12,110 nt of DNA from Dehalococcoidales bacterium (lineage in GTDB: Bacteria; Chloroflexota; Dehalococcoidia; Dehalococcoidales; UBA2162). A model generated the notes under the pieces. The model was not told the DNA's origin. It ran no database searches and worked only from the letters and a program-made list of their open reading frames with translations. The translations under genes and the position numbers were made by a program. Positions 2,193 to 6,988 of the stretch are shown here, one piece after another; positions within the stretch are counted from its first letter, which is position 1, and each line of letters begins with the position of its first letter. The DNA is taken from positions 1 to 12,110 of the forward strand of contig JAFGCW010000071.1 of assembly GCA_016932435.1 (NCBI GenBank). The letters run 5' to 3'.

Positions 2193-2241
2193 TGACTATT
2201 GTCCTGACCATGCAAGTTATAATCAGGTGAAGGAGGTTACG

Positions 2242-2628
2242 TTGCGTGATATCATCTATATTGTAGTGGCTGGTGGTTTCGGAGCACTCGGGCGGTATTT
2301 TATCACCGGCCTGGCTCATCGCCTCTTTGGAGCGGGGTTTCCTTACGGAACGCTAATAGTTAATGTACTCGGCTCTTTTTTAATCGGGTTAGTAATGCAA
2401 GCCAGCATGAGTACTGACCTTGTACCCCCTTCTTGGCGGCTGGCTTTGACACTTGGATTTCTGGGAGCCTTTACTACTTTCTCTGCATTCAGCTACGAAA
2501 CTCTCGGTTATCTTGAAGATGGAGCATGGTTATTAGCTGGAGTGAATATACTGGCGAATGTACTGCCGGCTATAATCGCGGTATTCTTTGGGGTATTACT
2601 GGGGCGAACACTATTTGGAGGGGTATAA
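2242..2628 (+). CDS. crcB: fluoride ion channel FluC/CrcB
   Basis: The product is a 128-residue, four-helix inner-membrane protein. It works as an antiparallel dimer to export toxic fluoride passively. Family motifs are complete: AGGFGALGRY near the N-terminus, GTLIVNVLGSF with the pore Asn41, and GFLGAFTTFSAFSYET with Thr78-Thr79, Phe80 and Phe83 of the phenylalanine track. I choose the TTG at 2242 because a perfect AAGGAGG (2230-2236) lies five bases before it. The in-frame GTG at 2227 would overlap that site. The TTG also brings Asn41/Phe80/Phe83 into register with the numbering I recall for a characterised Fluc homologue. A fluoride riboswitch precedes the gene and a DUF190 gene follows after two bases, so they are one unit. 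Confidence 0.95.
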   Translation: MRDIIYIVVAGGFGALGRYFITGLAHRLFGAGFPYGTLIVNVLGSFLIGLVMQASMSTDLVPPSWRLALTLGFLGAFTTFSAFSYETLGYLEDGAWLLAGVNILANVLPAIIAVFFGVLLGRTLFGGV

Positions 2629-3186: not shown

Positions 3187-4530
3187 TCATAGCTGTAACA
3201 GCAGGTTGGCTATAAAGAAATATAGAAGAACTCCGAATATATCCATGACGGTCGTGATCAGAGGAGCCGAGACCATTGCCGGATCAATTTTCATCAGACG
3301 GAATACGAAGGGAAGAATACTTCCTGTAATGGTAGCCAGGGTTGAAACAGCTACCAGAGTCAGTGTCACAACAAATGCTACTTGAAGATCACGTCCTATC
3401 AGGTAGGACCATCCAAGAGCAACAAGTCCCAGAATAACTCCCAGTAACAGTCCTACACTCGCCTCTCGAGAAACGATACTAAAAGCTCGTTTCTGTGATA
3501 CTTCCCCAGTTGCCAGTCCTCGAATTACGACAGTGGCCGATTGTGAGCCTACATTGCCGCCGGTTCCAATAAGCAGCGGGATAAAAGCAGCGAGTATGAC
3601 CACCTCCCCCAACAATACGTTCTGACTGGCGATAACCGAACCGGTCACAGTATTCACGAGAATAAGAAGGAAAAGCCAGACAACCCGGCGTTTTACGACA
3701 TTAAGGATGCGACTGGCGAAGTATCCTCGTTCCGTTCCGGGCACAGCACCGAACCGATACACATCTTCGGTGGCTTCCTGTTCCAGGATATCCGCCACGT
3801 CATCATGGGTAATAATACCGACGAGTCTTTGTTCATTATCGACAACCGGCACAGCCAGGAGGTTATGTTCTCGCAATACTTTAGCTACTTCTTCTCTATC
3901 AGTATATGTAAAAACGAAATCAGGATTGGGTTTCATGACATCGGAAAGCGGCGTATCAGGATCGGTAGTAACCAGGTCTCTAAGAGAAACTGTTCCAATA
4001 AGACGCCGTCGTCGGTCCATGACGTAGCACTCGTAAATAGTTTCGCGATTGATGGCGAGCCTGCGTATCCTGGCTAGTGCCTGAGAAACCGTCATTTCGG
4101 TATGAAGGTCTATAAACGAAGGGTTCATCTCTCGCCCGGCAGAGTCTTCTTCATAACCAAGCAACTGCGTCGTCAGACGGCGTTCATTTGGAGAGAGCGA
4201 CTGTATAAGTCTTCTAGCCACCACCGCTGGAACCTCATCCAGTAATTCAACCCTGTCATCCGGTGGCATTGCTTCGAGAAAGCTCCTTGCCGCCTGGTCA
4301 CTGAAAGATTCGAGTAAACGATTTTGAAGGGCTCCATCCAGGCGATCAAAAACTTCGACTGCGAGATCCTTGGGAAGAAGCCGGAAGGCTATCAAAGCTC
4401 TATCGGTGGGTTCATCCGCTAGGATTCGTGCTATATCGGATGGCTCAGACTCAATGAGCGCCTGTCGTAATGTCTTATATTGTTTATTCTCAAGGAGTTC
4501 TTTAAGTTCATCTTCATTGAGAAATGTCAT
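3187..4530 (-). CDS. mgtE: magnesium transporter/channel MgtE
   Basis: A 447-residue protein, very close to the usual MgtE length. Residues 1-130 form the helical N domain rich in acidic and Arg/Leu repeats. Two CBS domains follow (about 137-195 and 200-255), then the plug helix and five membrane helices (about 283-447). The pore signatures PLLIGTGGNVGSQSATVVIR (318-337) and KIDPAMVSAPLITTVMD (414-430) are intact, with the pore aspartate at 430. The N and CBS domains sense cytosolic Mg2+ and close the homodimeric channel. The ATG at 4530 is chosen because GGAGGT (4536-4541) lies five bases upstream. An in-frame extension to 4614 would read through the terminator hairpin and is unlikely. Expression appears to be governed by an attenuator in its leader. 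Confidence 0.96.
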   Translation of the reverse strand: MTFLNEDELKELLENKQYKTLRQALIESEPSDIARILADEPTDRALIAFRLLPKDLAVEVFDRLDGALQNRLLESFSDQAARSFLEAMPPDDRVELLDEVPAVVARRLIQSLSPNERRLTTQLLGYEEDSAGREMNPSFIDLHTEMTVSQALARIRRLAINRETIYECYVMDRRRRLIGTVSLRDLVTTDPDTPLSDVMKPNPDFVFTYTDREEVAKVLREHNLLAVPVVDNEQRLVGIITHDDVADILEQEATEDVYRFGAVPGTERGYFASRILNVVKRRVVWLFLLILVNTVTGSVIASQNVLLGEVVILAAFIPLLIGTGGNVGSQSATVVIRGLATGEVSQKRAFSIVSREASVGLLLGVILGLVALGWSYLIGRDLQVAFVVTLTLVAVSTLATITGSILPFVFRLMKIDPAMVSAPLITTVMDIFGVLLYFFIANLLLQL

Positions 4531-4560
4531 TACTGACCTCCCGGTTTCAAAACTTTCGGC

Positions 4561-4593
4561 AAATAAAAACCCCGCGTCCGGTGAGACGCGGGG
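4561..4593 (-). terminator. intrinsic terminator in the mgtE leader (attenuator)
   Basis: On the minus strand a perfect 9-bp GC-rich stem, CCCCGCGTC (4593-4585) with GACGCGGGG (4578-4570), closes a 6-base loop and is followed by TTTTTATTT (4569-4561). This is a textbook intrinsic terminator. It ends only 30 bases before the mgtE ATG and leaves no room for another promoter, so it must act within the mgtE leader as a conditional terminator. An upstream segment GCGCGGG (4645-4639) can pair with CCCGCGT (4592-4586) in its first arm and would be an antiterminator. Confidence 0.85.
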
Positions 4594-4618
4594 TGAATGA
4601 CGTACTGAACTCAAAAAC

Positions 4619-4726
4619 TTATTCCCGTGAACAAGCCTCCCGCGCTATCCATCGAACGATAATGGCTGAATACCTGCGTTTATGGTCAGGATCTTGTGGT
4701 GAACTGCTATCCATTTCTTTTACCAT
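4619..4726 (-). CDS. putative 35-residue leader peptide of mgtE
   Basis: An open frame of 35 codons begins at an ATG about 2-3 bases after the predicted transcription start, so the message could be leaderless; a second in-frame ATG (4714) gives 31 residues. It ends 26 bases before the terminator hairpin. The peptide starts MDSSSPQDPDHKRRY (counted from the second ATG), an acidic/proline patch followed by basic residues. This is the same kind of layout as the enterobacterial Mg2+-sensing leader peptide MgtL. Codons for Ala-Arg-Glu (about 28-30) overlap the candidate antiterminator segment. No strong Shine-Dalgarno is visible. It may instead be a chance frame within a structured leader RNA. Confidence 0.4.
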   Translation of the reverse strand: MVKEMDSSSPQDPDHKRRYSAIIVRWIAREACSRE

Positions 4727-4735
4727 TTTGCATCA

Positions 4736-4764
4736 ATTGTAGTCTCCATTACATTAACTGTCAA
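4736..4764 (-). promoter_or_regulatory. strong sigma70-type promoter of mgtE
   Basis: On the minus strand TTGACA (4764-4759) and TACAAT (4741-4736) are separated by exactly 17 bases. The start would be near 4729, giving an mgtE leader of about 200 nt that contains the leader frame and the terminator. The -35 box begins directly after the stop of the small frame at 4765. Confidence 0.85.
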
Positions 4765-6727: not shown

Positions 6728-6988
6728 ATGCATCATCTGGGATTTGGTTGCGAACACCACACACAAACGGAAAGAAGTCATCATCACCACGGAGGTTGTG
6801 GCTGCGCGAAACACAGTCAACCGCACCAGACTCACGGTTGCGGCTGCCATCATCACGGATATCTGACGCGGCGCTTCCCAACCAGGGAAGAAATGATTAG
6901 CGAGATGGAGGAATACTTGAAACAGCTCCAGGCTGAAGCGAAAGGAGTCGAAGAGCGCCTCGCCGAGATGAAGAAAGAAGACGAATAG
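6728..6988 (+). CDS. His/Cys-rich small metal-binding protein, DUF5320-like tail
   Basis: The 86-residue product has two parts. Residues 2-43 hold 14 His and 5 Cys, including HHHHGGCGC (18-26) and HGCGCHHH (36-43), a near-mirrored pair of Cys-Gly-Cys and His-cluster units. Residues 45-86 are a charged helix (RRFPTREEMISEMEEYLKQL onward) predicted to form a coiled coil, resembling short DUF5320-type proteins. I infer binding of a soft or borderline metal (for example Ni, Co, Zn or Cu) in the cytoplasm, as chaperone or buffer; no signal peptide is present. AGGAGG lies six bases upstream of the ATG. The stop overlaps the GTG start of the ABC ATPase gene by one base (TAGTG), so it is translated together with the exporter. 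Confidence 0.82.
   Translation: MHHLGFGCEHHTQTERSHHHHGGCGCAKHSQPHQTHGCGCHHHGYLTRRFPTREEMISEMEEYLKQLQAEAKGVEERLAEMKKEDE

Follow-up and report, generated by a model that had tools for sequence, protein, structure and literature searches.

We found that the mgtE gene of a Dehalococcoidales bacterium (Chloroflexota) is very probably preceded by a transcription attenuator that is run by a leader peptide, as judged from the conservation of its parts across 13 leaders. By analogy with the enterobacterial leader peptide MgtL, we lean towards the view that this leader senses Mg2+ through destabilisation of the translating ribosome. The window, by which we mean the whole stretch of 12,110 nucleotides that was analysed, carries both leader and gene on its minus strand; all coordinates below are window positions.

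Anatomy and distribution of the mgtE leader

The gene served by the leader (3187..4530, minus strand) encodes an Mg2+ channel/transporter with Pfam MgtE_N, CBS and MgtE matches above their cut-offs; its start codon is the ATG at 4530 on the minus strand. Upstream of it, at 4736..4764 (minus strand), stands a sigma-70-type promoter in which a -35 box TTGACA (4764-4759) is separated by a 17-nt spacer from a -10 box TACAAT (4741-4736). The initial annotation had called this promoter perfect; it is real, and with 11 of 12 consensus letters it is near-perfect. The putative leader peptide gene, MDSSSPQDPDHKRRYSAIIVRWIAREACSRE, follows at 4619..4714 (minus strand), with its ATG at 4714 and its stop codon at 4621-4619, and was delimited by alignment to relatives, with an excess of third-position variation in codons 2-14. 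The frame had been read as 35 codons from an ATG at 4726, as the window alone would have it; the frame is real and conserved, and the longer reading was ruled out by the alignment, in which relatives match the second in-frame ATG, at 4714, leaving 31 codons and a stop. By eye, the ribosome-binding site in the window looks weak.

Three elements within this frame recur in the argument below: a patch of proline and acidic residues followed by basic residues (the PQDPDHKRR region, 4673..4702, minus strand), whose Pro9 and Asp10 are invariant in 13 leaders; the 5' strand of a putative antiterminator helix I, GTTCGATGG (codons V-R-W; 4649..4657, minus strand), recognised by its pairing and by compensatory changes; and the 5' strand of a putative helix II, GCGCGGG (4639..4645, minus strand), in place of which relatives have GTGGGGC pairing with GCCCCAC. 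The leader ends in an intrinsic terminator hairpin (4569..4594, minus strand) and its T-rich tail (4561..4568, minus strand). The strong terminator that had been noted upstream of mgtE is real: its hairpin is kept in 13 leaders, in which 97.9% of cells are paired, and it has the most G-C pairs among 18 terminator-like sites in the window. Folded alone, the window leader is unexceptional (z -1.07); the evidence for it is comparative.

Searching genome contigs with the MgtE protein turned up three loci from Dehalococcoidia MAGs (68-72% identity), two of which have a similar short ORF plus terminator. Our class sample comprised 294 genomes, 56 of them with an MgtE match at E up to 1e-60; within it, 13 mgtE places in 12 genomes share 64-73% identity with the window protein. 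The leader ORF is present at nine of these 13 loci and absent at four, namely G220, G240 and both mgtE copies of G003. That genome has two mgtE copies (L008 and L010), neither with a leader peptide. When the first ten peptides, aligned, were used as query against six-frame translations of 393 class genomes, 16 places fell below E 1e-3: the nine already known, three new ones before mgtE (G373, G365 and G390), two relics and two others (G319 and G325), which lie inside other contexts and which we took for chance matches. Peptide matches above E 1e-3 were very numerous, with 228 of the 393 genomes having one at E up to 1, and by eye none of the six inspected above that threshold (L055-L060) precedes an mgtE-like frame.

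All 12 relatives' leaders stand before mgtE. The promoter boxes TTGACA-17/18-TATAAT are found in each of the 12, and across all 13 leaders TTGACA is combined with TATAAT or TACAAT at a spacing of 17-18, ending 17-24 nt upstream of the ATG, while the distance from stop codon to terminator is 25-29 nt throughout. On this comparison, the joint recurrence of promoter, frame, spacing and terminator in 12 relatives is more than chance would give. Mapped onto an MgtE tree of 22 rows, the leader label needs two changes, one sufficing in 16% of bootstrap trees; the two may be one gain and one loss, the latter in the G003 copy L008.

The window holds further features. A Molybdenum cofactor riboswitch (6256-6122, minus strand; 64.7 bits against a cut-off of 36) stands upstream of a MOT1-type molybdate transporter gene (6044-4905, minus strand). 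A Fluoride riboswitch match at 2130-2195 on the plus strand falls slightly below its cut-off (32 of 34 bits, E 1e-5) and has downstream of it an ORF (2227-2628, plus strand) that we take to be CrcB/Fluc-like. A His/Cys-rich ORF of 86 codons (6728-6988, plus strand; HHHHGGCGC) lies between an upstream regulator ORF, presumably ArsR-like, and an ABC transporter-like ORF.

Coding and pairing constraints on the leader frame

The 13 peptides share an N-terminal consensus, METKSSPDPDHKRR, with a proline/acidic motif near the N terminus in the form of a SPDPD-type patch at codons 6-10. M1, P9 and D10 are invariant in 13 of 13 peptides, and R13 and W22 in the first ten. In codons 2-14 the third-position share of variation is 0.545 in the 13 leaders (p 0.0001, column shuffling), 0.545 in the ten leaders found without the peptide (p 0.0009) and 0.529 in five divergent leaders (p 0.0015), p values to be read in the knowledge that related sequences are not independent. 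Codons 15-22 have no such excess (p 0.52), and pN/pS is 0.33 in codons 2-14 versus 1.03 in codons 15-22. Start and stop are kept in 13 of 13 leaders, and indels are in-frame only.

From the third-position shares and pN/pS it follows that the first half is kept as protein and the second half is not; the comparison thus shows an ORF that appears to be under selection for the peptide in the first half and for the RNA in the second. This coding signal indicates that the short ORF is probably translated. The alignment also answers the check that the initial annotation had proposed: frame, proline/acidic patch and antiterminator/terminator pairing are conserved together, with synonymous-type variation in codons 2-14, and none of the 13 leaders upstream of mgtE has the broken frame that would have spoken against the proposal.

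An antiterminator strand predicted to compete with the terminator lies within the ORF. In helix I, GUUCGAUGG of the ORF pairs with CCACCGGAC, which comprises the loop of the terminator and the first part of its 3' arm, and in helix II GUGGGGC pairs with GCCCCAC, the window version being GCGCGGG with CCCGCGU; the partner of the antiterminator is thus the terminator 5' arm, loop and first 3' bases. Window helix I joins GTTCGATGG (4657-4649) to TCACCGGAC (4584-4576) with 8 of 9 positions paired, and window helix II joins GCGCGGG (4645-4639) to CCCGCGT (4592-4586). GCGCGGG had been put forward as the antiterminator segment; it does pair with the terminator 5' arm, but it is only half of the structure, to which the helix I strand GTTCGATGG has to be added.

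Helix I forms eight or nine of its nine pairs in 12 leaders and seven in the remaining one, L053, and 88.6% of its cells are paired in register versus 22-57% when the register is slid by 1-3 columns. Two helix I pairs have changed in both strands, one from G-C to A-U in L007 and one from U-A to C-G in L053, a count of two-sided changes reached by 3 of 500 shuffles. In helix II the window has C-G in place of U-A, and the terminator pair there has likewise gone from A-U to G-C. In 12 of 13 leaders no more than 6% of shuffles match the antiterminator duplex energy (window, 4%; the exception, L017, 33%); over the 13 leaders the energies sum to -341, whereas 300 shuffles averaged -236 and reached -283 at best. 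These values refer to a full antiterminator (whole loop plus first 3' bases) that was defined after viewing the alignment, the synonymous control being for a shorter definition only. With that shorter arm the result is weak (window at 18% of shuffles, L017 at 78%), swapped arms do about as well as a leader's own, and in all 13 the pairing is about equally good once the last 13 codons are replaced by synonyms. Part of the pairing is thus a consequence of codon choice.

A third pairing, present in many relatives, joins the 5' end, which carries the ribosome-binding site (GGAACGAGA), to the antiterminator strand (UUUUCGUUC). It sums to -121.6; the 300 shuffles averaged -93.0 and went no lower than -115.7. 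Taken singly, 5 of 13 leaders lie at or below 7%. The window 5' end pairs just upstream of the antiterminator strand instead. The third pairing suggests an order of the attenuator type, 1:2, 2:3 and 3:4.

Fold calculations, which are equilibrium estimates for helix I only with the RNA cut after the terminator loop for the nascent state, gave the antiterminator a probability of at least 0.78 in 4 of 13 leaders without a ribosome, and, once a ribosome is placed at codon 10, of at least 0.88 in 6 of 13. Moving the ribosome to the stop codon brings 12 of 13 leaders to 0.15 or less; only the window remains at 0.99, as its ORF extends 18 nt beyond helix II. A standard footprint on the window stop codon leaves the antiterminator uncovered, and the window in this respect fits the model less well than its relatives. 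In full-length RNA the terminator prevails, at 0.99 or more in 12 of 13, whether the antiterminator strand is available or not; since equilibrium then prefers the terminator, the switch would have to be kinetic.

Two relatives that have lost mgtE retain the leader as a relic in which frame or pairing is decayed. In G100 (L050) and G248 (L051) the leader now precedes another gene, which we take to be peptidase-like; by eye, a truncated apparent mgtE begins after the terminator, and neither genome has an MgtE match at E up to 1e-60 in the class sample (membership by handle numbers). The relic frame of G100 meets a stop after 12 codons. That of G248 is open, with basic patch and helix II altered and the pairing decayed.

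Probable signal read by the leader

The initial annotation had proposed a peptide-coding attenuator in place of an M-box, and this stands: the coding signal is conserved and no Mg2+ riboswitch family has a match in the window at E up to 10. The M-box covariance model (RF00380) was run as had been suggested, and the match that would have spoken against the proposal did not appear (window, E up to 10). An M-box or other Rfam riboswitch as the regulator was rejected, with none in the window and no Mg2+ family in 12 further loci. The M-box is rare in the class, at 3 of 294 genomes, and is in none of the nine leader genomes of that sample.

That Mg2+ is the signal, and that translation would be aborted at the proline/acidic patch, we infer from MgtL and from the identity of the gene that the leader serves. 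What counts for Mg2+ is that mgtE is served, that no Mg2+ riboswitch matches the window, that the M-box is found in 3 of 294 genomes and that the patch is of the MgtL kind. According to the available portions of two accounts, the N-terminal proline/acidic patch of MgtL destabilises ribosomes at low Mg2+ (PMC11282234, PMC11552253); drop-off occurs at EPDP in low Mg2+, and changes to the acidic residues abolish it (PMC11282234, in part). The PQDPDHKRR region is accordingly proposed here as a site of ribosome destabilisation, its role modelled on the EPDP of MgtL as given in the portion of PMC11282234 drawn on.

In the mechanism that we propose, ribosomes in ample Mg2+ would pass the Pro-Asp patch and translate to the end of the ORF, occupying the antiterminator strand; with that strand occupied the terminator would form, and RNA polymerase would stop before mgtE. 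In low Mg2+, ribosomes would drop off, destabilised or stalled at the N-terminal Pro-Asp patch, and such unfinished translation would leave the antiterminator strand free to pair with the terminator, allowing mgtE to be transcribed. Without initiation, the 5' end bearing the ribosome-binding site would, in many relatives, pair with the antiterminator strand; because that strand would then be sequestered, only translation that is initiated and left unfinished should turn mgtE on.

The same attenuator could answer charged tRNA (Pro, Arg or Trp), a ribosome stalling at hungry codons so that mgtE is read in starvation. Proline and arginine codons do lie at a suitable distance upstream of the antiterminator, several relatives end in W-W-W-G, and low proline acts in the Salmonella mgtA and mgtC leaders, according to the available part of PMC3641672. 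We nevertheless consider this unlikely: there are one or two proline codons only, the first half is without a run of any single amino acid, and acidic residues are conserved as much as proline. No codon run for one regulatory amino acid was found before the antiterminator in the peptides. Trp runs occur in some relatives only, being missing in the window, L007, L016 and L017, and their codons lie inside the antiterminator strand, which a stalled ribosome would cover; Trp attenuation was ruled out on both counts.

An arrest-peptide attenuator, in which the nascent chain halts the ribosome on a ligand or drug and Mg2+ is not sensed by destabilisation, is likewise improbable. W22 and R13, conserved in the first ten peptides, could be tunnel contacts, and the geometry fits a stall before codon 16 equally with drop-off; yet the later part of the peptide is not under selection as protein (pN/pS 1.03), and the patch that is conserved, at codons 6-14, comes early for an arrest peptide.

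An RNA-only element, whose terminator/antiterminator folding would answer Mg2+ or an unknown ligand with the frame incidental, has very little probability: RNA folding is affected by Mg2+ and the helix strands are well conserved, but the coding signal speaks against it (excess variation at third positions, no indels other than in-frame ones, and start and stop codons retained by all 13 leaders), and there is no Rfam riboswitch in the window to serve mgtE. Terminators and short ORFs are common, but a constitutive, unregulated uORF plus terminator, or translational coupling only, is highly unlikely given that patch, spacing and alternative pairings are conserved together and that the leader decays once mgtE is lost.

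Known leaders and acidic/Pro ORFs in the class

The anatomy, that of a peptide-coding attenuator, is already known; what is new is the peptide, the host phylum, the gene and the combination with an intrinsic terminator. MgtL has a basic stretch after its proline/acidic patch, and the leader described here shares the order of an N-terminal proline/acidic patch and then basic residues. As far as the excerpts of PMC11282234 and PMC11552253 go, MgtL, too, is a short ORF upstream of an Mg2+ transporter gene (mgtA; Salmonella, E. coli), and its incomplete translation in low Mg2+ is proposed as the trigger that turns transcription on. MgtL differs in serving a P-type pump gene, mgtA, through a Rho-dependent terminator in enterobacteria, in contrast to the intrinsic terminator and MgtE channel of Chloroflexota; peptide and length also differ, and the likeness is claimed for the features only.

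Other systems share single aspects. CorL (corA) and MgtP (mgtCBR) are leader ORFs that attenuate Mg2+ transport genes (PMC11552253 and PMC3641672, both in part), but they belong to other genes, have other peptides and use Rho or proline signals. The M-box (ykoK leader, RF00380) controls mgtE by an intrinsic terminator in Bacillus (PMC12810186, in part); it is an aptamer RNA without a peptide and is unmatched in the window. In amino acid attenuators (trp, his and the Corynebacterium ilvB uORF) the end of the uORF holds an antiterminator strand set against an intrinsic terminator (for ilvB, PMC11109978, in part), whereas the Dehalococcoidia leader is without a run of product-amino-acid codons and serves an ion channel. 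The mycobacterial mgtE leader also has a uORF upstream of mgtE, with ribosome protection (PMC4974804, in part), but that uORF overlaps an M-box and encodes a VcgB-like peptide, and there is no acidic/Pro leader. A search of open-access literature on mgtE, Chloroflexi and Dehalococcoidia leader peptides found no such leader, and none is described in the portions of PMC11109978, PMC4833913, PMC4974804, PMC12810186 and PMC3641672 drawn on here.

Among 52 further mgtE upstream regions of the class, 11 fit an acidic/Pro short-ORF pattern that was chosen after viewing the class (shuffled mean 3.8, maximum 9 in 100 shuffles), and 9 fit a stricter form of it (mean 2.15, maximum 5); the 52 regions include four leaderless clade members, with L036 dropped as too short and the second G128 copy left out, and several of the matches are near relatives of one another. 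In a phylum sample the pattern was found in 4 of 67 regions versus a shuffled mean of 5.06, with 6 of 73 places left out (four class genomes already seen and two near contig ends) and with three loci at contig edges, whose estimated starts may be wrong; because this count does not exceed the shuffled mean, the sample gives no sign of such leaders outside the class.

Several of the class regions have ORFs of recognisable kinds upstream of mgtE. L028, L029 and L030 have MSPD(G/A)S... ORFs of 27-28 codons with a strong Shine-Dalgarno sequence, and L033 and L034 have an acidic/Pro ORF plus a terminator. Very short acidic/Pro ORFs (MGDPSS-, MGDTNG- and MDPSDT-type) stand directly upstream of mgtE in L035, L037, L038, L069, L070 and L076, for example MDPSDTTLPRMRR in L070, MSDPSDTRLSAQRR in L076 and MGDPSSPSSSRLS in L037; behind them are hairpins able to cover the mgtE ribosome-binding site. 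A tentative and on balance doubtful extension is that translation serves as an Mg2+ sensor across the class, acidic/Pro leaders having arisen independently of MgtL and forming a module whose output would be an intrinsic terminator in the clade of the window and, in other Dehalococcoidia, a hairpin masking the ribosome-binding site of mgtE.

If the Mg2+ dependence of the leader is true, sensing by ribosome destabilisation would not be enterobacterial only, having evolved in a distant phylum with another transporter and another terminator type than in MgtL. Such sensing would account for the control of mgtE in a class with few M-boxes (3 of 294 genomes), and would provide a second natural system for what makes nascent proline/acidic chains unstable, together with a searchable signature for more leaders in uncultured bacteria.
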